Assembly (NCBI RefSeq): GCF_031886125.1 | Contig: NZ_CP119391.1 | Span: 1,984,001 to 2,048,000 of the forward strand | Length of the DNA: 64,000 nucleotides | Source of the DNA: Halomonas piscis | GTDB taxonomy: Bacteria > Pseudomonadota > Gammaproteobacteria > Pseudomonadales > Halomonadaceae | Reading direction: 5' to 3' | Shown: piece by piece, positions 1-14,116 of the stretch | How the letters are laid out: each line of letters begins with the position of its first letter | How positions within the stretch are numbered: position 1 is the stretch's first letter | Made by a program: the position numbers and the translations under genes | Notes under the pieces: model-generated | Databases searched by the model: none | Told to the model about the DNA's origin: nothing | The model's input: only the letters and a program-made list of their open reading frames with translations

Positions 1-814
1 CCTTGGCGTGCTCTTCGATGAACTTGTCGTTGGAGACGAAGAAGCCGCCCGAGCCCATGGCGGGGTCGTAGACGCGCCCGCTATAGGGTTCCAACATTTC
101 TACGATCAACGAGACGATGCTTTTCGGTGTATAGTATTGCCCGCCTTGCTTACCTTCCGCCAAGGCGAACTGGCCGAGGAAATATTCGTAGACGTGACCG
201 AGGATGTCCTTGCTCTGGAGGCTGAGCTTCTGGCCTTGGAACTCGGGGTTTGCGAACGAGGTGTCTGAGAAGGAGTTGATCAGGCCGATCAGCTTATCGT
301 TATCGACCTCGTACTGACTGACACGGGTCAGCACGCCTTTCAGCTTCTCCGGGTTGTCACGCTCGATGGCATCCAGCGCGTTATCGATCAGCCACGAGAC
401 CGAGCGCAGCTTCACGTCGTTGCCGTTGACGTCCTGCCACAGCACAGAACCGATGGGTAGCGCCGCCTTGGACTTCAACGTGCTCCACCGCGCCTCCTTG
501 GGCACCCAGAACACGTTGGCTTCGCGGTAGTAGTCGAGAAGCTCCAGTTCTTCGTCAAGCGCCTGCTGATACTCCTCGTCGCTGTCGAAGTCTTCGCATG
601 GCAGGTAGTAGATGTTGTCGTCGCTGTCGTGCTGGAACAGCTCCCGCAACTCACGTTGGCGCTCCTCGAAGGCGTCGGAGACGTATTTCAGGAAGATCAG
701 CCCCAGTACTACATGCTTGTAATTAGCCGCATCCAGATTGGCTCGTAATTTGTCGGCGGCCTTCCAAAGCTTGTCGTCGAGCTCCTTCAGGAACTGCTGC
801 TCTGTACTATTCAT
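1..814 (-). CDS. hsdM: Type I restriction-modification DNA methyltransferase subunit HsdM, N-terminal part (runs off the left edge)
   Basis: Methylates adenine in the recognition site of a type I R-M system, normally in an M2S complex with HsdS that also binds HsdR. About 271 residues are visible from ATG 814. The first 150 or so form the helical HsdM_N domain (near the start: LWKAADKLRANLDAANYKHV, then LIFLKYVSDAFEER). The N6-methylase domain follows with GGQYYTP and the SAM-binding motif DPAMGSGGFF close to the window edge. The catalytic NPPF motif, hsdS and hsdR would lie further left and cannot be seen. A 209-bp gap separates it from the hydrolase gene, so it probably has its own promoter. 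It belongs to the accessory island. Family assignment is very secure; whether the full system is intact is unknown. Confidence 0.93.
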   Translation of the reverse strand, partial: MNSTEQQFLKELDDKLWKAADKLRANLDAANYKHVVLGLIFLKYVSDAFEERQRELRELFQHDSDDNIYYLPCEDFDSDEEYQQALDEELELLDYYREANVFWVPKEARWSTLKSKAALPIGSVLWQDVNGNDVKLRSVSWLIDNALDAIERDNPEKLKGVLTRVSQYEVDNDKLIGLINSFSDTSFANPEFQGQKLSLQSKDILGHVYEYFLGQFALAEGKQGGQYYTPKSIVSLIVEMLEPYSGRVYDPAMGSGGFFVSNDKFIEEHAK

Positions 815-1023: not shown

Positions 1024-1533
1024 CTATCCGGCTCGGCCAAGCTGTACGTCGACCCAGAGCGCGAACAGAGTCTTGATATCTGGCATCACTGATGTTAGCC
1101 GGTGATCGCTGTCGAGTAGATGTAGGTCCGCTCGGTGCTCCTCGGCGAAAGCCACTACGTTGCTCACCGGAACAACTTTATCGCCCCAGCCGTGGCAGAT
1201 CGACGTGGACACGCCTTCCAGCTGGAAGCCCGACTGCATAGCGTAGCCGGGTAGCCCCACCGCAGGTGCCAGCAGGAACAGTCCTGCGACCGGAACCGTC
1301 TGGCTGGCCACGAGCGACACGTAGGCCCCCATCGAGGAGCCCACCAGCAGACAGGGGCCGTTGGTCACGGATAGCACCTTCACCAGCTTTTCTACGCGTG
1401 CCTCAGGTTCCGAGATGCCCAGATAGTCGACACTTTGTACCTGAAGCCCCTTGGTCAGAGCGACCTGCGACATCTGAACGATCTTCTGGCCATACGGGCC
1501 GGATTCCTTGCCGTGCGAAAAGATAACCTTCAT
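1024..1533 (-). CDS. Small alpha/beta hydrolase (esterase-like)
   Basis: A 169-residue single-domain alpha/beta hydrolase. Visible features are an N-terminal strand with FSHGKESG, the nucleophile elbow GSSMGAY (Ser), GWGDKVVP for the acid (Asp) and a late SDHRL for the His, so the catalytic triad looks complete. It resembles the short YqiA-type esterase class; the substrate is unknown. The start at 1533 was chosen because GGAGGAAAC precedes that ATG, and because the ATG overlaps the TGA of the upstream metallopeptidase/VWA gene (ATGA), implying translational coupling. That coupling links the hydrolase to the AAA/VWA operon, so it may act on a product or cofactor of that system. That role is inference. 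Confidence 0.8.
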   Translation of the reverse strand: MKVIFSHGKESGPYGQKIVQMSQVALTKGLQVQSVDYLGISEPEARVEKLVKVLSVTNGPCLLVGSSMGAYVSLVASQTVPVAGLFLLAPAVGLPGYAMQSGFQLEGVSTSICHGWGDKVVPVSNVVAFAEEHRADLHLLDSDHRLTSVMPDIKTLFALWVDVQLGRAG

Positions 1534-2828
1534 GTTTCCTCCATGACCACGATGTGACCCCATGAGACCGACAGGTCTGCTTCTTCGGGCATGACCCAGA
1601 ACACGGGGACCGAGGGCAGCTGCGTCGGCATGCGTCCTTGCCCATCGGTGAGATAGACCAGACAGTCCGGTACCAGCGCCTCGACCCGTTCGAACACGGG
1701 GCGAAAATCGGTACCGCCACCGCCCATCAGGGTCATTCCCTCGGGCGTTGCCTCATCTGCCAGCGCGTTCAACTCATGGAGCGAGGAGAGTGAACGCTCC
1801 CGGTGTATCGCGGCATCCGCCTCGATGACATGGAGGTCTACCCGATCCGCACTGACCAACAAAACCTGAAGTTCCCCAAGGAAGCGAGCCCAATGACTGC
1901 GGGTGCTGGCACTGGAATCAATGGCCACCACCAGACGCAACGTCTTGTGATAGCGCCCCGGCAGATAGCGACCATGGCCCCAGTGTCGACGGTGAGGACG
2001 TTGCCATGAGGGCATGCCTCCCGCACGCGACTGAATGATGTCGGCCAGCACGTGACGCCAAGGCACCCGAGACACCGTATCGGTGTGAAGCATCTGCTCC
2101 ATGCCGCAAGGCACGGACCCCGGCCAACTGGTCTCACTGACCCGCTGCACCGTCTGCTGCCATTGCTGCGTCAGCTGTCGCGCCCGCTGAGAGTCTGCCA
2201 GTACGGGGCGGTAGTCGGTATCCACGACTATCGTGCCGTCCCGGTGGCCCCCGATTGGGGAAGCCAGCAGGTTGCCGTGATGATCGAACGGGGTATCCAC
2301 TTCGGGTTGCGGATGGGCCAACAACCATTGGTAGATGGCCTCAGCACTCTTGCCGGCTTGTGCCGGATACAGCACGGCATCATGGGGCAGCGAGAAGCCA
2401 TCGCATAGCAGTCGATAGTTCACCTCGGCATCGACGGCCAAATTCCAACGCAACGGGTCCCGACCATACTGGCGCTGAAAGTGACCGAGCAGGACATGGT
2501 ACAGCTCATGGCCTAACACGAAGCGTCGCAGCGCGGACGTGCATCGGGAAGCGAAGTGGGCATTCACGAATACCCGCTCGCCATCGGTACACGCGGTCGG
2601 CACTCTGTCGTCCACCACCATCATCAGCGGTAAACGCATGACCAAGCGCGCGGTAAACGGGTATGTCATCAGGAAGTGCTGCACCTCCTGTTGCCAGACA
2701 CGATGCTGCTCGGTCTTGAGCGCCTGCTCCTCAGACGAAGGCGATCGCAGGGTCATGGCACGAGAGGTGTGTTGAGCGCCGTGGTCGCGTTGCGGATCAG
2801 GGGAAAATCCCACGAGATCGTCTTGCAT
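1530..2828 (-). CDS. DUF2201-type protein: zinc metallopeptidase-like domain plus C-terminal VWA-like domain
   Basis: About 432 residues. The N-terminal half has HELYH (about 107-111) followed by AVDAEVN (about 131-137), matching the HExxH plus downstream Asp arrangement of the putative metallopeptidase domain of DUF2201 proteins. The C-terminal part is VWA-like, with the MIDAS-type DSSAST (about 304-309), GGGGTDF and LTDGQG, so the metal site looks intact. Such proteins are typically encoded beside a MoxR AAA ATPase, as here: the upstream ATPase stop and this ATG share bases (TGATG). GTG 2831 is an alternative start three bases upstream. The VWA domain probably docks on the ATPase ring or an Mg-dependent partner. 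The substrate is unknown, and protease activity is inferred only from the motif. Confidence 0.85.
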   Translation of the reverse strand: MQDDLVGFSPDPQRDHGAQHTSRAMTLRSPSSEEQALKTEQHRVWQQEVQHFLMTYPFTARLVMRLPLMMVVDDRVPTACTDGERVFVNAHFASRCTSALRRFVLGHELYHVLLGHFQRQYGRDPLRWNLAVDAEVNYRLLCDGFSLPHDAVLYPAQAGKSAEAIYQWLLAHPQPEVDTPFDHHGNLLASPIGGHRDGTIVVDTDYRPVLADSQRARQLTQQWQQTVQRVSETSWPGSVPCGMEQMLHTDTVSRVPWRHVLADIIQSRAGGMPSWQRPHRRHWGHGRYLPGRYHKTLRLVVAIDSSASTRSHWARFLGELQVLLVSADRVDLHVIEADAAIHRERSLSSLHELNALADEATPEGMTLMGGGGTDFRPVFERVEALVPDCLVYLTDGQGRMPTQLPSVPVFWVMPEEADLSVSWGHIVVMEET

Positions 2829-4024
2829 CACTGGCGCCCTCCCTGTGCCGGTCCCTTGTCGGCGGCGTCATCATCGAGCGTGGGCTCGCCAAACAGCGAG
2901 AAGCGACCCTCCGGCAAGTCAACATCGGGGGCCTCGATGATTTCCTCCATGGGCAATCCATGGCACTCCAGCCATGCCGGAAAAGCCGGGTGACCAAAGA
3001 CCTGCTCGGCACGCTGATGACTGACGGCATCGTCCTCGTGACGCAATCCATCGATGAGCATCAAGGTGGCCAGATCACTTCCTAGCTGCAGCCCGACCTC
3101 CAAGAACACCGATAGTCGGGTGGACTGCATCGATTCATCGCCGTGCCAGAGGTAGTGCACCATCGCTGCTACGAACGCCAATTGCTGATCGCTGCGCTCC
3201 GGCAGTTCAACGGGGACCTCGCGATGCAGCATGGCGGGGATGTCCACTCGGTGATGGGTGCCCTCGCGAAATGCCATGAACTCTGTGGTGGCTGCCTCAC
3301 CAATCAAGCCCTGCACCATGAGGCGCAGGGTGATGTCATCGAGGTCGGTATTCGCGGTGAGCAGATGGGACACACGCTCCCATGTCCGGGGCGAGGGCCA
3401 GCCCCGCTGGGCGTTGTCGCCATGATCCAGCAGGTAGTCGGGCTTCAAGCGCAAAAAGGCGATGATGTCATGATGCAGCCGCCGTGACACCGCATAGCGG
3501 GTCCATGCCTCGATATCCGCTTCCAGCTCGACATGGAGGAAACGGTTGGCCAAAGCCGAGGGCATGGGGAAGGACACCGCCTGATCTTCGATTCGATTTC
3601 CCGCAGCGACGAGTAGCCAGCCAGCTGGCAGGGTATACAGCTCTCCCAAGCGGCGATCGAGCAGCAGCTCATAGGCGGCGACTTGGACGGCGCGATCGGC
3701 AGCTGGCAATTCGTCGAGCAGCAGAATCCCTCGCGACGCTGGGTCTCGGGGCCATAGATCGGGGATCAGCCACTGGAGCGTGTCACCCCGTGGGGTCGGC
3801 ATGCCCCGGATGTCGAGAGCATCCATTTCAGCCAAACGCACGTCGATGAAGTCGATGCCGGTTTCGGCACAAAGGTCACGAACGAGCTGGCTTTTGCCTA
3901 GCCCCGGCGCGCTCCATAACATCAACGGCGCGATCTGGTCGCACGGAAGAGTGTTCGACCACAGCAACTGCAGCTGGGTCTCGATGATCTGGCGGGCATG
4001 AATGAGCGTACTGGTCAGCGGCAT
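2828..4024 (-). CDS. MoxR-type AAA+ ATPase
   Basis: About 398 residues. Walker A is SAPGLGKSQ (about 38-46), Walker B LLLDELP (about 101-107), and a sensor-1-like LLVAAGN follows. The rest is an AAA lid and a helical C-terminus. The family forms hexameric remodelling ATPases that act with VWA partners, and a VWA-like protein is encoded immediately downstream with overlapping stop and start. ATG 4024 was preferred over upstream Mets because TAGGAGA lies five bases before it. That same TAG is the stop of the preceding small ORF, so the genes are packed end to end. The chaperone role in this particular operon is inferred from family and context. Confidence 0.9.
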   Translation of the reverse strand: MPLTSTLIHARQIIETQLQLLWSNTLPCDQIAPLMLWSAPGLGKSQLVRDLCAETGIDFIDVRLAEMDALDIRGMPTPRGDTLQWLIPDLWPRDPASRGILLLDELPAADRAVQVAAYELLLDRRLGELYTLPAGWLLVAAGNRIEDQAVSFPMPSALANRFLHVELEADIEAWTRYAVSRRLHHDIIAFLRLKPDYLLDHGDNAQRGWPSPRTWERVSHLLTANTDLDDITLRLMVQGLIGEAATTEFMAFREGTHHRVDIPAMLHREVPVELPERSDQQLAFVAAMVHYLWHGDESMQSTRLSVFLEVGLQLGSDLATLMLIDGLRHEDDAVSHQRAEQVFGHPAFPAWLECHGLPMEEIIEAPDVDLPEGRFSLFGEPTLDDDAADKGPAQGGRQ

Positions 4025-4032
4025 GGCGTCTC

Positions 4033-4275
4033 CTACATTGGGGACGTCCATGTTATGCCCGGCTCGCGACACCAGCTGACGTACGCTCTCGGCAGTCGGC
4101 GCTGATCGGTAAAAGTGCGAGTGCTTCCGGCTGACCCATCGATCATTGCCGGGAAAGGCTCGCTCAGCGGGCTACCGATATCGAGCTGCGTCAGCGAGTA
4201 AGCACTCGTGTGAAATCGATGCACTGGCATGGTGAGATCGGTCCCTTGGACGCATCCAGTGGGCTCGTCGCTCAT
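4033..4275 (-). CDS. Small hypothetical protein inside the AAA/VWA operon
   Basis: An 80-residue ORF that fills the gap between the 585-residue gene and the ATPase gene. Its ATG lies 9 bases after the upstream stop, with GGTGAGAG overlapping that stop as a possible ribosome site. Its own TAG stop forms part of the ATPase Shine-Dalgarno sequence TAGGAG. No family was recognised; the product is mixed polar with two Cys and no membrane segment. Tight fit in a compact operon is the main argument that it is translated. It could still be a chance ORF in a leader of the ATPase gene. Confidence 0.5.
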   Translation of the reverse strand: MSDEPTGCVQGTDLTMPVHRFHTSAYSLTQLDIGSPLSEPFPAMIDGSAGSTRTFTDQRRLPRAYVSWCREPGITWTSPM

Positions 4276-4284
4276 GGCTGTCTC

Positions 4285-6042
4285 TCACCGGGGCCGTTGT
4301 GGTGGCGTGGATAACGCCAGCGACATGGCCCGTGCGCGATGCTGATCCGCTTCCGCAGAAGTGCAAGAACGTTGCTCCCTCCACTCGACCGGCTTGCATG
4401 CGATGCGAAGCAGTCGTGCCCGAACCTCGGCTGTTTCCACACCGACTCGGCTCAGGACGTCCAGATAGGCACCCAACGGCAACGTCGCCTCACAGGCCGA
4501 TAGCCATCGCGTATCCAAGGCAGGATTGTGCCCATAGTGGATGACGCGGGCTTTCGCATCATGCAGCCATGGGGGCGCTTGTTGGGGCTCAGCCGATGTC
4601 ATGACGTCCAACAGCTCGCTCCACATGTCGATTTCATGGGGCCGAGGATGATGGCCGTGACGTACCATGGCATTCATCACGGTCTGCATGGCCAGTGAGT
4701 TCGGGTCTTGCTGGCAGGCGTTCAGCATGGCGCGGCGAAAGCGGTACGCCTCATCGCACCATGTCGCGCAGTAGGCCCAGAGCACGTAGTCTGCCCACCA
4801 TCCCTCACCACCGAGGTCCGGCGGTAACGTCCATTGCCAGCGACCACGAGCCGACGCCATCCGAGCCTGAAGACGTGTCGCGTGATGTCGTTTCCCGTGG
4901 GGGGACAGATGCCGAGCCGAGAGCGCAAGCCGCATGGACCACAAAAGTTCGGGGTTGGCCCCTTGCTCGGCCAACTGCGCCAACAGCTCTAGCGCCTTTA
5001 CCGCTTCGCGAGGCGATGACATGGAAGGCAGCAGCAGAGCCAACTGATCGAGACTGCGTTGGGGCGATGTGGCAAAGGCATGCACCCATCCCGCCACCAG
5101 CGATTCATCGACGCTGATCTGGGCGACATCCGCCAGTGAGGGCGGGACACTACCCTTGCAGGTGATCGTGGTGGTAGGCGCCAGAGAGACCGACGTCATG
5201 GCGCTACCACAATGCGCCAAGTGCAGGTCCGTGGGGTGAGCCACGTGAAGTCGCTCCAGTTCGCAATGCCGTAACACCAGCTGACCACATATCGCGGATA
5301 CGTCGAGCGAGGTGGCCTGTGCTCCACATGACGCGAGATGAGTCAGTCCCATGCGGCCTGATAGCTGATGTAGTTGGGGACTATGCCGAATCCGGCATCG
5401 GCCCTCGGGGGCCTCGACAGTGAGCGTCGATAGCCGTGTCAGGCCCTGTGTTTCGATTTCCGGGGTGTCCGTCCCCATGGATGTCAGCTGCAGGGTGTGC
5501 AGTTGATCGGCATTTTGCAGCAATAGCTGGCGAAGCTGAGGGGCGTCAAGAATCACTTCCTCGTCCGTGGGCTGTAAGGCAATCCAACACTCGGCCAGTG
5601 GGTGGGCATCATGCAAATCGGACAACGCACTGGCATGTCGAACGACAGCTCCTTGCCACGGACGTCCCTGACCACGCGCCGCGAAGTGTCCCTGATGCCA
5701 GCACGCATCCAGTTCATCCACCGCTCCCTCGATGACCAATGAGGGCGGATATGGACCGCTATCCAGATGCACGACGGCGCCATGCCCCTCTGAAGGCACA
5801 CGTAACCACGCCAAGCGATCACACCCGATGATGGTGATATGCATACCCGGTTGGCAGGCCTGTAGGTCCAATGCCATCAAGTGATGACAGTCCCTGATAT
5901 CGAGATGACGAAGCGAGTTATTGATAATGGTGCCGTGTGTCACGAGTGCTTCTGACAACACCGCACCTCCTAGCCGATCGTTCTCAACAACGAGCTTTGT
6001 ATCATGCAGATGATCATGCTGAGAGGTCATTGCGTGAGTCAT
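4285..6042 (-). CDS. Uncharacterised leucine-rich-like protein, first gene of the AAA/VWA operon
   Basis: About 585 residues with no recognised catalytic motif. The N-terminal 300 residues are a series of irregular Leu-rich strands (for example LRHLDIRDCHHLMALDLQAC and QLHTLQLT), suggesting a solenoid recognition domain like divergent leucine-rich repeats. The C-terminal half is helical and Trp-rich around GGEGWWADYVLWAYC. ATG 6042 is favoured (weak GGGA upstream); GTG 6090 is an alternative adding 16 residues. It is the promoter-proximal gene of the run that continues into the small ORF, AAA ATPase, metallopeptidase/VWA and hydrolase. A target-sensing or adaptor role is a guess from this position and from the repeat-like fold. 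Confidence 0.72.
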   Translation of the reverse strand: MTHAMTSQHDHLHDTKLVVENDRLGGAVLSEALVTHGTIINNSLRHLDIRDCHHLMALDLQACQPGMHITIIGCDRLAWLRVPSEGHGAVVHLDSGPYPPSLVIEGAVDELDACWHQGHFAARGQGRPWQGAVVRHASALSDLHDAHPLAECWIALQPTDEEVILDAPQLRQLLLQNADQLHTLQLTSMGTDTPEIETQGLTRLSTLTVEAPEGRCRIRHSPQLHQLSGRMGLTHLASCGAQATSLDVSAICGQLVLRHCELERLHVAHPTDLHLAHCGSAMTSVSLAPTTTITCKGSVPPSLADVAQISVDESLVAGWVHAFATSPQRSLDQLALLLPSMSSPREAVKALELLAQLAEQGANPELLWSMRLALSARHLSPHGKRHHATRLQARMASARGRWQWTLPPDLGGEGWWADYVLWAYCATWCDEAYRFRRAMLNACQQDPNSLAMQTVMNAMVRHGHHPRPHEIDMWSELLDVMTSAEPQQAPPWLHDAKARVIHYGHNPALDTRWLSACEATLPLGAYLDVLSRVGVETAEVRARLLRIACKPVEWREQRSCTSAEADQHRARAMSLALSTPPQRPR

Positions 6043-6082
6043 GGCGCTATCCCGTGTCGCAGTGATGACACCAGTGTGACTT

Positions 6083-6099
6083 CTTGGCACGACGCCAAG
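6083..6099. promoter_or_regulatory. Perfect inverted repeat CTTGGC-N5-GCCAAG upstream of the AAA/VWA operon
   Basis: A six-base palindrome with a five-base spacer sits 41 bases before the chosen start of the 585-residue gene and 35 bases after the stop of the HTH regulator gene. Spacing and symmetry fit an operator for a dimeric regulator, the neighbouring HTH protein being the obvious candidate. It could also be a short RNA hairpin in the leader. Confidence 0.45.
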
Positions 6100-6133
6100 T
6101 GACGGATATCACGAAGGGGAGAGAAAAGCGCTG

Positions 6134-6451
6134 TTACGTCACAACCGACGTTGACATGGAAGGCAGTGCCGTCTCATGTCCTTTAGAGGAATGTTGATTG
6201 ATGGCCGGAATACCCGTCGCGTAATGGTGATCCATCGACCAGCGATAAGGCTTGGTGGTGGTGTCACAAAACAACGGGAAATAGCGTGAGAGGCGATCAT
6301 TCAAATCGCGTTGCAATGAACGTGATCCTATATTGATGCCTCGTTGGGCCAAGTGACCCATGAGCTCTGTAGTAGAAATCGAACGGGGGTACGGAGGAAT
6401 GAGTTGTAGGATAGTGATGTAACGAAAGAACGTCTCTCCCATATCAGCCAT
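6134..6451 (-). CDS. Short HTH transcriptional regulator resembling the N-terminus of WYL-domain proteins
   Basis: 105 residues. The part from FFRYITILQLIP through ISTTELMGHLAQRGI and SRSLQRDLND to FPLFCD and KPYRWS follows the winged-helix N-terminus of WYL-domain regulators closely. These often sit next to phage-defence loci and repress them. The WYL ligand-binding domain and the C-terminal dimerisation part are missing: after KPYRWS there are only about 35 unrelated residues. ATG 6451 was chosen because AGAGAGG lies six bases upstream; the longer frame upstream is AT-rich and not protein-like. It is either a truncated relic or a stand-alone DNA-binding form. It is transcribed in the same direction as the operon that starts 91 bases downstream. 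Confidence 0.72.
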   Translation of the reverse strand: MADMGETFFRYITILQLIPPYPRSISTTELMGHLAQRGINIGSRSLQRDLNDRLSRYFPLFCDTTTKPYRWSMDHHYATGIPAINQHSSKGHETALPSMSTSVVT

Positions 6452-6702: not shown

Positions 6703-7011
6703 CTAACACCCCACGCAGTAAAGCGTTCCGCACTTCTTACACGCCTTAGCCTTGCTTTTCATATAACTATATAATTCCCGATTCACATCAGCATTGTATT
6801 TGTGACAAATACCTACAAACTTACCGGGAACATGGTCCTGAAAATCACGTCTACCCTTCTTCTCGTAACCATTTATAACATCACGTAAAAATCTATATTC
6901 CTTACTACCATTAGGAGGCAAGCTCTTAGTATTTTTACGGCCTTCAGTCAATCCTACTACATCATGTTTTATAATTTCAGAATCTGGCCAGAGAACATTT
7001 AAAAACTCTGC
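6703..7011 (-). pseudogene. Helicase-like gene, 3' fragment (split by insertion sequences)
   Basis: The last 102 codons of the gene that begins at 11349. The visible sequence runs in frame from AEFLNVLWPD to the stop and ends with a cysteine cluster, CKKCGTLYCVGC, which looks like a zinc-binding knuckle. It is separated from the rest of the gene by the IS3-like element. Removing that element and one copy of the GGTCC duplication joins this piece in frame to the middle fragment. TTG 6951 could start an 82-residue product, but no function should be assigned to it alone. Confidence 0.85.
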
Positions 7012-7092
7012 GGTCCCCCCCTCTGTCAGCCTAGTTGTCCAGTTGGCGATTTCGCCTGAACCAATATCAGAATGGGCGGCACAGGATGGTTT

Positions 7093-7599
7093 ATGCCACG
7101 TTATTCCGAAGAGCGTAAGGCCGCGGTACTCAAAAAATTGTTACCGCCAGAAAGCCGCAGTGTGGCGTCGGTTGCCACCGAGGAAGGCATCGCGAACGCA
7201 ACCCTGTATGGTTGGCTGAAAGCATGCCGACAACAAGGAGTGCCTGTGCCAGGCAAGCGTAAAACCGGGGATGAATGGACAGCTGACGCCAAGCTGGCCG
7301 TCGTGATCGAAACCGCCCCTCTGTCAGCGACCGAGCTGGGCGCCTATTGCCGCGAAAAAGGGCTGTATCCCGAGCAAGTGCAGCGCTGGAAGGAGGCGTG
7401 CCTTCAAGGGGCGGGCCAGCAGGAGGCGCAGGAAAAGGCGGCTCGGCAGCAGCGTAAAAAAGATCGTCAGACGATCAAGACCCTACAGTCGGAGCTCCAG
7501 AAAAAAGAGCACGTTCTGGCAGAGACAACGTCGTTACTGGTGCTCTCAAAAAAGCTCGAGGCCTTGTACGGGGAAGCCCCGGACAACGAGGACGACTGA
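7093..7599 (+). CDS. IS3-like transposase OrfA (HTH protein)
   Basis: 168 residues. The N-terminal HTH_Tnp_1-like domain (MPRYSEERKAAVLKKLLPP, then ATLYGWLKACR) recognises the element ends; a charged coiled-coil tail (about 110-155) probably mediates multimerisation with OrfAB. ATG 7093 was preferred over 7072 because AGGA lies six bases upstream and the frame matches the usual OrfA start. The gene carries a frameshift heptamer at 7548 and overlaps the OrfB reading frame, as expected of IS3-family elements. Confidence 0.88.
   Translation: MPRYSEERKAAVLKKLLPPESRSVASVATEEGIANATLYGWLKACRQQGVPVPGKRKTGDEWTADAKLAVVIETAPLSATELGAYCREKGLYPEQVQRWKEACLQGAGQQEAQEKAARQQRKKDRQTIKTLQSELQKKEHVLAETTSLLVLSKKLEALYGEAPDNEDD
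7548..7554 (+). other. Programmed -1 frameshift heptamer A_AAA_AAG between OrfA and OrfB
   Basis: In the OrfA frame the codons are TCA AAA AAG, giving the classical X_XXY_YYZ slippery heptamer. After a -1 slip the frame stays open (GCT CGA GGC CTT and onward) into OrfB with no stop, so an OrfAB fusion transposase would be made. A second A6G at 7501-7507 is in the wrong phase. Confidence 0.75.
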
Positions 7600-7625
7600 C
7601 GTCGCTGAACGAACGTACAAGGCTG

Positions 7626-8660
7626 TTGAAGGACTTTGACGAAGCGGTCGCCAGTGGTGCCGCCCGCTACAAGGCGGCAGAGCTGATGGGGCTCAGTCAG
7701 CGCACGTTGAAACGCTGGCGGTATGCCAGCGGCCAGGTGGCACCAGACCGGCGCCCACAAGCGGAGCGAGTGACACAGCCTCATCAGCTCACCCAGGCGG
7801 AGGAAACGGTCATGTTGACGCTATGCAGCGAACCCGAATATCAAAGCTTGCCGCCGTCACAGATCGTCCCGCGCCTGGCCGACCAGGGCCGCTATCTCGC
7901 CTCGGAGTCGTCATTTTATCGGGTACTGAAAAAGCATCGGCAGCTGAATCACCGTGGCCGGATGGCACCGGTCCGTCAGGTGACCCAGCCGACCAGTTTT
8001 ACCGCGTCGGAGCCAAACCAGGTCTGGAGCTGGGACATCAGTTACTGTCCCTCTGCGGTTCGTGGCGAGCACTGGTACCTGTATCTGATCCTGGACGTGT
8101 ATAGCCGCAAGATAATCGCCTGGGAAGTGCATGACAACGAGTCCGGTGAGCTGGCGAAGCGGTTGATGGAGCGTGCCCTGTTGCGTGAGCGCTGCTGGCA
8201 CACGCCGCCGATACTGCACTCGGATAACGGCGCGCCCATGACCTCGTACACCCTGCGCGCCCGGCTGGCAGAACTGGGCATGTTGATGTCGCATAGCCGT
8301 CCTCGGGTCAGCAACGACAACCCTTACTCGGAGGCGTTGTTCCGTACGGTCAAGTACTGCCCGGCATGGCCAACAAAGGGCTTCACCTCGCTGGGTGCGG
8401 TGCGTCAATGGATGCTGACGTTCGAGCATGCCTATAACGAGCGACACCTTCATAGCGGTATCAACTTCGTGACGCCGGCCGACCGGCATCAAGGTAAAGA
8501 TAAGCAACGTCTGCTCGATCGAAGAGCAGTCTATGAACGTGCCAAGCGTCAGAATCCCGGGCGCTGGTCAGGCGATATCCGGTGCTGGGAAGCCACTGGA
8601 TCGGTATCGCTCAACCCAGGCAGGCCGCAGGAAATAGAGGGCAATAAAGAGGCTGCTTAG
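7626..8660 (+). CDS. IS3-like transposase OrfB (DDE integrase core)
   Basis: About 344 residues from TTG 7626, but probably made mostly as the OrfAB frameshift product. It has an HTH region (LMGLSQRTLKRW), an HTH_21-like segment, and an rve integrase core. The DDE triad is visible: Asp in WSWDISYC, Asp in HSDNGAP, and Glu in NPYSEALF exactly 35 residues after the second Asp, the D(35)E spacing of IS3 and retroviral integrases. It looks full length and intact, so the element may be active. Confidence 0.9.
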   Translation: MKDFDEAVASGAARYKAAELMGLSQRTLKRWRYASGQVAPDRRPQAERVTQPHQLTQAEETVMLTLCSEPEYQSLPPSQIVPRLADQGRYLASESSFYRVLKKHRQLNHRGRMAPVRQVTQPTSFTASEPNQVWSWDISYCPSAVRGEHWYLYLILDVYSRKIIAWEVHDNESGELAKRLMERALLRERCWHTPPILHSDNGAPMTSYTLRARLAELGMLMSHSRPRVSNDNPYSEALFRTVKYCPAWPTKGFTSLGAVRQWMLTFEHAYNERHLHSGINFVTPADRHQGKDKQRLLDRRAVYERAKRQNPGRWSGDIRCWEATGSVSLNPGRPQEIEGNKEAA

Positions 8661-8984: not shown

Positions 8985-10318
8985 CTGAGGAATCCCCATG
9001 AAATGGGTAATAAAATCAGCATGATAGGATTGAAAAAGCCTGCATGAGTCATGCATGTTGTGAGTTACGACACACAACAACATGCGAAGGAGACCCATGC
9101 AGGCCCCTCGATTCTTGCATAACTTGCTGACGTCTTCACTCTCCGTGATCCATGCCAAGCGGCTACAGACCGTCCTCGATACCGTTGGCGCTCTGCTGGG
9201 CGAGCGACGTCTGGGATTAACGGCCATTGGCCGTGCGTTGCCGAGCTCGACGGATGCCAAGCACGCCATCAAACGAGTCGATCGACTATTAGGCAACCCT
9301 CACCTTCATCAGGAACGACCGCTGTTCTATTGGCTCATGGCCTCGCTGCTGATCGGCCATACAACGCGCCCACTGATTCTGGTGGACTGGTCGCCGATTG
9401 ATGACCGCGGCAGGCATTTCCTGCTGCGTGCGGCGGTGCCCTTCGCCGGGCGATCGCTGCCCATCTTCGAGAAGGTTCATCACAAGGAAGGATGCCCATA
9501 CTGTGAAGCCTATCTGCTGGATGCGCTGGCAAGGATCCTGCCCGACAAGGCCACGCCGATCCTGGTGACCGATGCCGGCTTTCGTAACCCGTGGTTTCGG
9601 GCCGTTGAAGCGCGCGGCTGGTATATCGTTGGACGGGTCCGTCAGCCCGCCCGTTACCAGGCGTCAGGCGAAGCATGGCAACCCGTGAAGACCCTGTTTC
9701 AACACGCGACATCGGAACCGCAGGCGTGGGGCTCCGTCCGGATCGCCGAAAACCATCCGTTCCGCGCTCAGATGGTGCTCTATTATCGACCGCCACGGGG
9801 ACGTAAGCATCGCAATAAACAAGGCCGGATCTCTCGGGACGGCGGCAGCCGGACGATCGCCCGGCGTCAGCAGGAGCCCTGGGTGCTGGTCAGCAATCTG
9901 CCGGACCGCTCAACGCTGGCGAATAAAGTGGTAACGATCTACCGACAGCGCATGCAGATTGAGGAAGGGTTCCGCGATGTCAAAAGTCCCTTGTTCGGGC
10001 TGGGCTTCGGCATGCATCAGTCTCGCCAGGGCAAGCGCATCGAGGTCCTGCTGCTGATCGCCATGTTGGCGAACGTGGCCATGATGGTGGCCGGCCTGGA
10101 TGTCCGAGCCCGGGGGCAACAGCGGCGCTATCAGAGCAACAGTATCCGGCACCGGAGCGTGCTTTCCGTGTGGCGCCTGGGCTTGGAATGTCTTCGTCGT
10201 CATCAACCCGACGCCGTGCCTTGGCCTGCTTGGACAACCCTCCGAGCACGACTTCGCGAGGAAGTCAGGGAGCAGAGCCTATGCGGCGAGTAGCAACATA
10301 TTCGTGGGGATTCGTCAG
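8985..10318 (+). mobile_element. IS10-like insertion sequence (IS4 family) with 9-bp target duplication
   Basis: 1334 bp, close to the 1329 bp of IS10. The ends are inverted repeats: left CTGAGGAATCCCCATGAAAT, right (reverse complement) CTGACGAATCCCCACGAATA. The target duplication GTTTTATAC is exact at 8976-8984 and 10319-10327, and nine bases is the IS10 rule. It carries one intact transposase. It lies inside the helicase-like gene in the opposite orientation. Confidence 0.96.
9097..10293 (+). CDS. IS4-family (IS10-type) transposase
   Basis: 398 residues, similar along its whole length to the IS10/Tn10 transposase. DDE residues are seen in VDWSPIDD, VTDAGFRNPW and the IS4 signature Y-(2)-R-(3)-E-(6)-K, read as YRQRMQIEEGFRDVK. 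ATG 9097 was chosen because AAGGAG precedes it by four bases; an upstream ATG at 9082 lacks such a site. There is no frameshift or stop, so it is probably functional. Confidence 0.95.
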   Translation: MQAPRFLHNLLTSSLSVIHAKRLQTVLDTVGALLGERRLGLTAIGRALPSSTDAKHAIKRVDRLLGNPHLHQERPLFYWLMASLLIGHTTRPLILVDWSPIDDRGRHFLLRAAVPFAGRSLPIFEKVHHKEGCPYCEAYLLDALARILPDKATPILVTDAGFRNPWFRAVEARGWYIVGRVRQPARYQASGEAWQPVKTLFQHATSEPQAWGSVRIAENHPFRAQMVLYYRPPRGRKHRNKQGRISRDGGSRTIARRQQEPWVLVSNLPDRSTLANKVVTIYRQRMQIEEGFRDVKSPLFGLGFGMHQSRQGKRIEVLLLIAMLANVAMMVAGLDVRARGQQRRYQSNSIRHRSVLSVWRLGLECLRRHQPDAVPWPAWTTLRARLREEVREQSLCGE

Positions 10319-11349
10319 GTTTTATACGCTTTCTTTTTCCGCGAGTCCACATTCGCATTAAAAATAAAATCTTCATCTCCAATAATAGAAAGAGCTGTTC
10401 TAACCACCTTGCTCTCATTATCATCACCTTTCTCGCCTCCTTTGTTCATGAAGCTAATGCTATTATTTTTGTCAATAAAATAATGTATCTTCAGCCGATC
10501 ACCGTTATCATGCGAAGACGACGAACTGCCAGAAAAATTATAAAATTTACATTGCATACCTGTACTTCTCAATACTTCACAAAGCACTGTTTTTTCGAAC
10601 ATGGCTGATAGTATCGAGATCGAGGAAAACTGACTCAAAGAGGCCTTGTCTACTGCAGAAAGGAAGTATAACTTAACGCCTTCGTCATGCCCCTTCATTA
10701 CCCTTTGTAATGCGAAAAAATCATCTTCTACAAGATAAGTACTGAAGGACGATGAAAGTACATATTCAAGGAACTGTAGTGCGTCCTCCCTCCCCCACCA
10801 GCCATCGTCTTTAACCTCTCCATTTAGCAGGCTTATTAATACATTTTTATATTCTTCCTTCACACCAACAGTCATCAACCCACTAAAGCAGCTCTTTTTC
10901 CAATAAAATTTATCGTGGAAATTTGTTGCTGATAGCTTTGTTAAGGACATTGATGCAGTAGAAAAAAGATCGATACATTCATCTATTAGAAGACACCAAC
11001 CATCAATTCCTCTCATACCATCTAGCATCAAACCTTTAAATGTTATATGCGTTATAACCAAAAAAACAGGAACTTCTTTTTTATTCGCACCATCAATCGC
11101 GTCTTGCACCATCTGCTTTACTGGCTTACCTTTACCCTTTCCTGTTTTTTTATCTTCTGAGGTAATCACCTTACAGAAAAAAGAATTACATTTATCCTTA
11201 GCCAACTCATATGCCTTCTTTTCGTATTCCCTTGCTAGATCTATAGACGGCACCACCGCCAAAACCTTTCTTTCACTCTTAACATAGTAATCAATAGCTG
11301 AATGGGTCTTTCCTGAACCAGTCAAGGAACTATCATAGTACACTTTCAT
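10319..11349 (-). pseudogene. Helicase-like gene, 5' fragment with Walker A and DExx motifs
   Basis: The first 343 codons of a gene restored to 539 residues when both insertion sequences are removed (1031 + 280 + 309 nt = 540 codons including stop). The protein begins directly with a P-loop, TGSGKT (residues 10-15), has a motif Ia-like AVVPSIDLAREY and a Walker B/motif II LLIDECID (about 121-127), so it is SF1/SF2 helicase-like. Start ATG 11349 has AGAGG five bases upstream. Base composition is strongly AT-rich next to the GC-rich core. As it stands, translation stops at 10315 inside the IS end after 344 residues, so any product lacks motif VI and the Cys cluster. It may be a decayed defence or mobile-element replication gene. 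Confidence 0.85.
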
Positions 11350-12647: not shown

Positions 12648-13937
12648 TCAATCAATACTTCTTATCAACCCTATCGCCGACTTTAGAACATCAGGCTCGT
12701 ATTCTTTTCCATATCGCGTATTTGTAATTCCGCCAGTGGTATGCCCTAACACCCCACCAATTTGATTCTCTGAAACTCCTTTTTGCTTCAGTTCATTAGC
12801 TATCGTATGACGAAAACTATGAAAATCCTTCTTACCCCTTCCTCTTTGTTCTATACCAAGCTTATCCCGCAGACGACCAAACCACTTAGAGGGAGTCGCA
12901 GAGTACCCATGCTTTTCGCTCCACCTCAGATTAAAAACACGGGACTGATCCGGCAAAGAAGATACATACTCGACAAACCCCATCTTTAAAAGGTCGTGAT
13001 GAATCGGTATCACGCGTTCAGCTGAATGATTCTTTAGTCTCTGGTCTGGTTTTCTCTCTCGGACATGAATACAGGCAATGCCATCAATGATCTTCACATC
13101 TTCTTTGTAAAGCTGGCATATCTCATTGAGGCGAAATGCACCATAGTAGCCAAGGTGAGGAATCCAATACTTCCACCCCTCTTGCTGTTTGACTTCAAAG
13201 AAAATTCTTCCAATTTCCTCTTCAGTGAACTCATCTCGATAACTATTCACTTTACGCTTGAGCTTGATCTTCATCCCTGAAAATGGATTTCTGGTGATCA
13301 ACTCCATGGCGACAGCATGCTCGAAGACGGTCACAAGGTTCTTAACATAATTGTTATAAGTCGTTATCGAGATCGTCTTGTCAGCCGTCTCGATAAGCAT
13401 ATCAAGCGTCAGGTGGGGCTTTTGTGTCAGTGTTCGCGTTGCAAGCGGAGGGAGCTGCAGAACCGTATCTCTGAACTGCTTGACAGTCTCAATGGTGTAG
13501 TCAGTGATAGGAAGGTCACCAACGATACGAATGAGTAGGTCAACGACGGCTTGTTTATCATCCAGCGTCTTCAATGAGACACCTTCGAGCCTTTGTTGCT
13601 GCCTGTAACCTTCTAGAACCTCGGAAAGGCGTTTCGCTGGAGCATGAGGAATAACGATATTCTGGGACGATGCCAGATGGCTCTCGGGCAGGCTCGCGAG
13701 GGGGCTAGAGCCGTTGAGCTGGGCATCAGGGAGAGCACGACCGATCAGTTCGGACGCTTCTATCAGCAAGCTGGAGGCCTTCAGGATAGCTTCACGCTTT
13801 GAGCGTGTCCGCAAGGATCGCTTGATGACCTTCTTGCCGATACGCTGCTGAGCATAGGTAGGTACGACGATGCGAAAGTACCAGATGCCATGGCGCGAGC
13901 GGATAAGGTAGGCAGGCGTTTTAGAAGAATTTCCCAC
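12648..13937 (-). CDS. Tyrosine recombinase / genomic-island integrase
   Basis: 429 residues. The C-terminal catalytic domain has Arg in YYGAFRLNEICQL, HSFRHTIANEL for HxxR, and the LGHTTGGITNTRYGKEY block holding the second His and the nucleophilic Tyr; the N-terminal part is an arm-binding domain followed by a SAM-like core-binding domain. It starts at GTG 13937 with GGGGGGA seven bases upstream. It lies with its 5' end facing the 3' end of ffs, the usual layout for an island integrated at an RNA gene. It is expected to excise and integrate the island whose right end is here. It appears intact. Confidence 0.93.
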   Translation of the reverse strand: MGNSSKTPAYLIRSRHGIWYFRIVVPTYAQQRIGKKVIKRSLRTRSKREAILKASSLLIEASELIGRALPDAQLNGSSPLASLPESHLASSQNIVIPHAPAKRLSEVLEGYRQQQRLEGVSLKTLDDKQAVVDLLIRIVGDLPITDYTIETVKQFRDTVLQLPPLATRTLTQKPHLTLDMLIETADKTISITTYNNYVKNLVTVFEHAVAMELITRNPFSGMKIKLKRKVNSYRDEFTEEEIGRIFFEVKQQEGWKYWIPHLGYYGAFRLNEICQLYKEDVKIIDGIACIHVRERKPDQRLKNHSAERVIPIHHDLLKMGFVEYVSSLPDQSRVFNLRWSEKHGYSATPSKWFGRLRDKLGIEQRGRGKKDFHSFRHTIANELKQKGVSENQIGGVLGHTTGGITNTRYGKEYEPDVLKSAIGLIRSID

Positions 13938-14012
13938 GAGTTTGTCCCCCCAATTTGTCCCACTGGGAGGTCAGCCGAAGGAAAAACCCTTTAAAAACAA
14001 CAAGTTGGAGGC
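13938..14012. promoter_or_regulatory. Probable island right boundary (att region) between integrase and ffs
   Basis: Base composition changes here from island to core. It contains two direct copies of TTTGTCCC (13941-13948 and 13954-13961), candidate integrase arm or core sites. The exact crossover cannot be set, because the other attachment site lies outside the window. Confidence 0.4.
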
Positions 14013-14116
14013 GGCCCCAAAAGCCGCATCCCGGCACACGCGTCCACCACTACCGTTGCTCCCTTCCGGGCCTGGCGGGGTTTGCAGTTTGGCGTTGCGG
14101 GAGGACCTGAGGGGCC
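14013..14116 (-). ncRNA. ffs: 4.5S RNA of the signal recognition particle
   Basis: Minus-strand sequence contains the conserved SRP apical loop, CAGGCCCGGAAGGGAGCAAC, and the conserved ACGCGTGTGCCGGGATG and CTCCCGCAACGC segments of bacterial 4.5S RNA. The termini GGCCCC and GGGGCC pair to close the long hairpin at about 104 nt. It binds Ffh to target nascent membrane proteins to FtsY. It lies 37 bases downstream of tRNA-Met in the same direction. A small hairpin, CGCAGGC-N4-GCCTGCG (14125-14142), lies between them without a T-run, so co-transcription and processing are possible. Confidence 0.95.

Follow-up and report, generated by a model that had tools for sequence, protein, structure and literature searches.

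The stretch of DNA analysed here, 64,000 nucleotides of Halomonas piscis contig NZ_CP119391.1 (hereafter the window), carries on its minus strand a compact operon, at positions 1024-6451, which probably encodes a mobile conflict system directed against phages. The system would be of the MoxR–vWA ternary kind, in which a MoxR-type AAA+ ATPase and a von Willebrand factor A (vWA) domain protein work with a third component; here a leucine-rich repeat (LRR)-like protein extended by an alpha solenoid (LRR-HEAT) would be a new third component serving as the sensor, and a zincin metallopeptidase N-terminal to the vWA domain would be the effector. The conserved core consists of the LRR-like protein, the MoxR AAA+ ATPase and the metallopeptidase–vWA protein, often with a WYL-family regulator, and this triad is patchily distributed in bacteria and some archaea. 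The interpretation is based on sequence, namely the gene set, conserved motifs, co-occurrence, co-variation and island location; from these we infer the binding target, the protein contacts, the peptidase activity and the defence outcome.

Transcription of the operon runs from a helix-turn-helix (HTH) regulator through the LRR-like gene, an open reading frame (ORF) of 80 residues, the AAA+ gene and the metallopeptidase–vWA gene to an alpha/beta hydrolase. A first-pass annotation, made from the sequence alone, had described close-packed leftward ORFs and this is confirmed: they overlap (TGATG or ATGA) or are separated by small gaps, those flanking the 80-residue ORF being of 9 and 8 bases. The exception is the LRR gene, which begins 91 bases past the regulator. 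Alignment to relatives supports starts at 6042 for the LRR gene, 4024 for the AAA gene and 6451 for the regulator; for the hydrolase the ATG is at 1533. The palindrome reported upstream of the operon does exist, but it sits between the regulator and the LRR gene as a candidate operator, and upstream of the regulator there is only a weak inverted repeat with 10-base arms 32 apart. The same annotation had treated the five genes from LRR to hydrolase as a unit. This was rejected because the hydrolase and the 80-residue ORF are not conserved. The hydrolase, whose identity is upheld by Pfam, has a single homologue among the ORFs of 90 loci (L041, 48% identity, 3.7 kb beyond the vWA gene), and the 80-residue ORF finds none but itself among them and has no Pfam match. 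By position the hydrolase appears to be co-transcribed, lying outside the conserved core.

The regulator was correctly placed in the family of WYL regulators, but the window protein, at 105 residues, consists of the HTH only and has no WYL ligand domain; its match to a PADLOC WYL model is weak (0.019). A homologue at locus L025 has 361 residues and carries both WYL and WCX. Short forms of 102 residues occur at L023, L024 and L031, and since the short form thus recurs in four genomes the regulator is no fresh truncation. At L025, L050 and L051 a WYL-family regulator adjoins a stand-alone 209-residue DUF2201_N-like protein, and genes resembling OGFr and gamma-glutamyl-cyclotransferase lie near the AAA/vWA pair.

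The enzymatic pair is well defined. Identification of the first member as a MoxR-like ATPase is borne out by its match to phrog_1297, an ATPase family (1.2e-74), with Pfam AAA_3 falling just below threshold (25.6 bits against a cut-off of 27). The remodelling ATPase midasin is its closest relative of solved structure by sequence. The second member matches Pfam DUF2201_N (1.7e-27) and DUF2201 (PF09967; 4.3e-24), in agreement with the metallopeptidase and vWA domains first proposed; the metallopeptidase is N-terminal to the vWA domain by Pfam, and structure comparison supports a vWA fold for the latter. The Walker A pattern is present in 90/90 AAA ORFs, and HExxH and DxSxS are each present in 80/80 vWA ORFs, counting patterns anywhere in the ORF and including duplicate loci. 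Across 38 aligned vWA proteins the residues H108, E109, H112, D305, S307 and S309 are invariant. Judging from these motifs, both enzymes should be active. The metallopeptidase–vWA protein also matches phrog_1314 (3.5e-66), which is labelled HNH endonuclease; this label, carried by some phage records as well, looks wrong.

The third protein is recognized by its predicted structure. Neither the window protein nor any of 38 homologues matches a Pfam family. The AlphaFold model (pLDDT 91.2) comprises an LRR-like beta solenoid followed by an all-alpha solenoid, and so the first-pass description of the protein as LRR-like holds at the level of fold. The LRR assignment is based on VIA-align and the strand pattern, both in agreement with an LRR solenoid, because Foldseek with this model gave nothing under 1e-3 in the PDB or BFVD. 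Searches of 5.8 billion proteins returned three homologues each, a number limited by the word filter which leaves rarity unmeasured. Four families (LRR, AAA, vWA and regulator) were aligned. With a median pairwise identity of 20%, compared with 52% for AAA and 38% for vWA, the LRR protein is the fastest diverging of the three, as would be expected of a fast-evolving sensor. In another genome of the genus, a copy of the LRR gene (G464:C1:2947350-2949003) is interrupted by several stops.

Contigs from GTDB were scanned with the AAA alignment alone, giving 148 stretches and 99 relatives, of which the best 80 were kept; a scan of genome contigs with the single vWA sequence gave no match where the AAA alignment succeeded. 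An LRR-like gene is found at 43 of the 80 loci and not at the remaining 37, by a 10-row LRR profile at an E-value of 0.01, three rows of which coincide in place, fully or nearly, with loci among the 80 (L032, L059, L049). A wider LRR profile gives 53 of 88 loci, a count which is partly circular, its members having been drawn from those loci, so that the 10-row count is the fairer one. LRR-positive loci occur in Halomonas, Vreelandella, Marinobacter, Burkholderiales, planctomycetes and Poseidoniales, among others. In 34 of the 43 three-gene loci the LRR gene directly precedes the AAA gene in the same orientation and ends less than 200 nt from it or overlaps it, overlap being judged on crude ORF calls. 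This count, like the comparisons of LRR-positive and LRR-negative loci given below, omits L021, L023, L024 and L026; L024 and L026 repeat L032 and L059, L021 nearly repeats L049, and L023 is a distinct genome. The adjacency search advocated in the first-pass annotation thus finds the LRR, AAA and vWA genes together repeatedly, but not the hydrolase or the 80-residue ORF. The three genes also occur together, in some cases with the regulator, in near relatives from the genus itself and on Sphaerotilus and Azospirillum plasmids. At L025 there is no LRR gene within the stretch examined, and L028, from another family, has neither LRR gene nor regulator. Within the genus, a strong AAA match (E <1e-60) occurs in 6 of 37 genomes, and 14 of 82 have the LRR protein, its own genome included. 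Class-wide, the LRR protein was found in at least 3 of 369 genomes (one its own, one marginal), with at most three candidates scored per genome.

The operon lies in a genomic island of 24.9 kb whose integrase adjoins ffs, the gene for the signal recognition particle (SRP) RNA. The first-pass annotation described the island as integrase-bounded; a tyrosine integrase is indeed present, but what bounds the island is a directly repeated 3' part of ffs. A 64-base stretch of this part recurs to the left, outside the window, with three mismatches, the copies being 24,937 bases apart. The 3' end of a tRNA-Met gene was considered as the integration repeat and rejected in favour of ffs, its sole other site being 290 kb away. 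Between the repeats lie a Upx homologue, a serine resolvase, a type I restriction-modification (RM) set, the operon, two insertion sequences, an ORF matching phrog_2467 and the integrase. The Upx homologue (1236 residues, 1.3e-154, L029:8567-12277) is left of the window beside the complete RM set, to which hsdM, rightly noted downstream of the operon, belongs as part of a separate hsdMSR set. The phrog_2467 family has no assigned function in PHROGs, and the ORF shows a weak ResIII signal. The two insertion sequences lie between possible remnants at 6703-6951 and 10315-11349 (minus strand). In another genome (G016, locus L023) the operon is near an integrase beside the transfer-messenger RNA (tmRNA) gene; the insertion sites therefore differ. 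The features are listed in Table 1.

Table 1. Positions of the operon and of neighbouring features in the window.
Feature	Position	Strand	Basis or remark
5' part of hsdM, type I RM set of the same island	1..814	-	
Alpha/beta hydrolase, UPF0227/Abhydrolase-like, 169 aa	1024..1533	-	Pfam; outside conserved core
HExxH metallopeptidase (DUF2201_N) + vWA with MIDAS (DUF2201), 432-433 aa	1530..2831	-	Pfam; predicted effector/co-chaperone
MoxR-type AAA+ ATPase, 398 aa	2828..4024	-	phrog_1297, Walker A, midasin relative
80-aa ORF, perhaps no gene	4033..4275	-	ORF list; homologue search
LRR-like beta solenoid (about residues 18-312) + alpha solenoid (313-577), 585 aa	4285..6042	-	Predicted structure
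Short palindrome, 6-base arms, 5-base spacer, candidate operator	6083..6099	.	Regulator–LRR gap
HTH-only regulator, 105 aa, WYL-regulator family	6134..6451	-	Comparison with relatives
Insertion sequence, HTH_Tnp_1 + rve ORFs	7072..8660	+	
DDE_Tnp_1 transposase insertion	9082..10293	+	
Tyrosine integrase of island	12648..13937	-	Pfam
36-base core (one mismatch) of 64-base island-end direct repeat (three mismatches), ffs 3' part	14006..14041	-	
ffs (SRP RNA)	14015..14111		Rfam

Neighbourhoods of the triad are rich in defence genes. The 112 neighbours of LRR-positive loci that were scanned match 93 PADLOC families at 1e-15, with Ssp, Zac, PD-T4-3 and NERD-helicase models among them. In the control, which took 104 neighbours from around 14 other MoxR-like AAA genes, four families are matched: SspA, DndA and two viperin models. 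These are numbers of families matched rather than of proteins with a match; the 112 were hand-picked without a fixed rule from 177 listed neighbours (200-900 residues, with most ADP-ribosylglycohydrolase and c4 AAA proteins and several others dropped), and the control ORFs were of 200-650 residues with up to eight per locus. SspA and DndA also appear in the LRR-locus list, and so those two are not specific. A double-AAA protein, cluster c4, is found at 16/45 LRR-positive and 5/39 LRR-negative loci (p 0.02), groups of unlike taxonomy; counts for clusters c4, c5, c6 and c8 were obtained with a crude ORF picker followed by single-linkage clustering, in which wrong ORFs are possible and c6 is of mixed lengths. 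The c4 proteins, of about 740 residues with two AAA stretches, lie near the LRR triad at L034, L036, L038, L042, L047, L052, L054 and L056-L058, and the member scanned has IetA- and TRIP13-like PADLOC matches.

Some of these neighbours point to ADP-ribosylation. ADP-ribosylglycohydrolase (ARG) genes, one cluster member of which was confirmed as ADP_ribosyl_GH, occur in up to three copies at 14/45 LRR-positive and 5/39 LRR-negative loci, and the 112 neighbours include SIR2 (3), MavL-type macrodomain (2) and ARPP-1 (1) proteins. In published ARG-centred systems the regulator is of WYL or Nudix type and a chaperone, such as a vWA protein, is often present, and the ARG–WYL systems are predicted to act against ADP-ribosylation by viruses (PMC9503650, section 3.8). 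The triad might thus be an accessory chaperone or peptidase arm of such systems, acting on ADP-ribosylated proteins. The WYL regulator, the vWA chaperone and the ARG genes near some relatives are shared with the published set. Against this, the LRR-positive versus LRR-negative difference reaches only p 0.07, there is no ARG in the operon's own genome nor in the stretch examined at 31 of the 45 LRR-positive loci, and section 3.8 names no LRR protein, MoxR ATPase or metallopeptidase. We regard this explanation as distinctly unlikely.

Several observations weigh against an anti-phage role for the triad or weaken the evidence for it. No PADLOC model matches the AAA, vWA, LRR or hydrolase protein at 0.1. 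The presence of a WYL-family regulator at 24/45 LRR-positive and 5/39 LRR-negative loci (p 1e-4) speaks for such a role, but the comparison is confounded by taxonomy, the LRR-negative loci being largely from other phyla and often on short contigs. The LRR half of the sensor candidate has an entropy of 2.47 and the helical half one of 2.64, so that the LRR half is no more variable, contrary to a simple arms-race expectation. Pairwise distances across 35 loci are strongly correlated (LRR–AAA r 0.88, LRR–vWA 0.92, AAA–vWA 0.89; 0/2000 permutations as high; L023-L027, L031 and the window itself left out, both L021 and L049 kept), and block transfer explains this co-variation as well as protein contact does. 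Finally, the Poseidoniales loci L092, L095 and L097 hold the triad among shared neighbours, and these copies may be stably inherited. Stable archaeal copies would also suit a mobile chaperone–peptidase module for maturation or quality control, in which the AAA ring and the vWA protein would remodel or cleave some complex of the cell, LRR-HEAT would present the substrate as an adaptor, and the association with defence islands would be incidental. MoxR–vWA pairs act as assembly chaperones elsewhere, and the relationship to midasin is in keeping with this. Such a module is nevertheless unlikely, given the patchy presence of the LRR protein within the genus, the differing insertion sites and plasmid copies, and neighbourhoods far richer in defence families than those of the control.

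A further point of the same kind is that the AAA/metallopeptidase–vWA pair occurs in many phages. The AAA alignment finds 61 viral loci, most with a vWA gene nearby, and 400 phage records match the vWA protein. Relatives of the pair are also found in 70-kb coliphages, which we take to be N4-like. In jumbo phages a virion-assembly or structural role has been proposed for the pair (PMC7824862). The pair in the window could derive from a phage or satellite, where it would have served virion maturation, and be kept by a mobile element for its own packaging or transfer. The home of the operon is an integrating element, and the gene upstream of the regulator is replication-protein-like (REP_ORF2-G2P) at L023 and, below the curated cut-off, at L024. 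Set against this, a scan covering part of the island's ORFs turned up no capsid, portal or terminase gene, and none of the 61 viral loci has an LRR-like gene even by the wider LRR profile. The pair is therefore common to phages whilst the LRR protein is seen only in the cellular set, and a packaging function is very improbable.

In loci lacking the LRR gene its place may be taken by other proteins. Cluster c6 comprises 14 loci, mostly of Lentisphaerae, Kiritimatiellae and Verrucomicrobia (L064, L066-L068, L070-L074, L076, L079, L082, L086, L102), in all of which the c6 protein is encoded in the same orientation as the AAA or vWA gene and less than 200 nt from it, with up to three copies in a row; two members scanned have no Pfam match. 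It is likely to be an alternative third component. In the seven loci of cluster c8, from Lentisphaerae/Victivallales (L091, L093, L094, L100, L104, L106, L109), the place directly upstream of the AAA gene is occupied in every case by a helicase gene, of UvrD type by the one member scanned. No LRR gene is found at any of the 21 c6 or c8 loci. By analogy, this exchange resembles the swapped third components of MoxR–vWA ternary systems (PMC8195603).

The sensor, remodeller and effector roles first suggested for the operon fit the comparative evidence, because of the adjacency, co-variation, island location, defence-rich neighbourhoods and conserved catalytic motifs, but they apply to a three-gene core with its regulator and do not include the hydrolase. 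In the ternary conflict system which we favour, the WYL-family HTH regulator would control expression. The LRR-HEAT protein would act as sensor or adaptor, its LRR solenoid binding an invader-derived or invader-modified protein, and binding would be relayed through the alpha solenoid to the MoxR AAA+ ring and the MIDAS-bearing vWA domain. ATP-driven remodelling might then activate the zincin on the vWA protein, or feed the target to it, and the zincin would cleave a foreign protein or, in an abortive form of defence, a host protein. More tentatively, the triad could be a bacterial immune receptor in which the idea of the nucleotide-binding LRR receptor (NLR) of plants and animals is split into separate proteins: a stand-alone LRR-HEAT sensor would license a MoxR AAA+ ring which unleashes a tethered zincin, and lineages would differ in the sensor (LRR-HEAT, c6, UvrD-type helicase) mounted on one conserved motor–protease chassis that phages also have. 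If the anti-phage interpretation is correct, LRR-based recognition and a metalloprotease effector would be added to the MoxR–vWA conflict systems, and this in common free-living gammaproteobacteria as well as archaea, with LRR-HEAT as a family without a Pfam match that is open to direct assay. The comparisons also suggest that phages and hosts may use the same AAA/protease pair for different purposes, and that one third component can be exchanged for another.

Among known systems, RavA–ViaA is a MoxR AAA+ ATPase with a vWA partner. It is not known to have a metallopeptidase or LRR partner, and would share the pairing with the triad but not these two features. None of the papers found to name DUF2201 or its Pfam numbers has a title about defence, and no description of the LRR/AAA/metallopeptidase–vWA set was found in the literature searched, which excludes preprints outside PMC and most subscription journals. 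The suggestion of an undescribed system may hold for the exact set, but not for its kind. The jumbo-phage proteins (PMC7824862) are homologous to the pair and have the same domain architecture, differing in the lack of an LRR gene. Meanwhile the same MoxR AAA+ and vWA pair characterizes the ternary conflict systems VMAP, iSTAND, iSTAND2 and TERNS3 (Kaur et al. 2020, 2021), in which the third component beside the pair defines the system and a sensor, remodeller and effector logic is predicted (PMC8195603, PMC12839542). The window has a MoxR-type AAA+ ATPase, an intact vWA/MIDAS partner and a system-specific third component beside them. The model of that component has no STAND-like P-loop alpha/beta module, the trait of iSTAND and iSTAND2; it shows a beta solenoid and then an all-alpha part. 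None of 38 homologues has a Pfam match, a result that would bear on the VMAP and TERNS3 domains only if Pfam holds them. In the ternary systems the vWA protein is known to carry fused peptidases, and in rare cases these are metallopeptidases (PMC7159879). The effectors there are typically C-terminal fusions, whereas here the zincin is N-terminal and the third component is an LRR and alpha-solenoid protein. Furthermore, where the ternary-system papers stress multicellular prokaryotes, the triad is seen here chiefly in gammaproteobacteria, Halomonas and Marinobacter for example, and in marine archaea.

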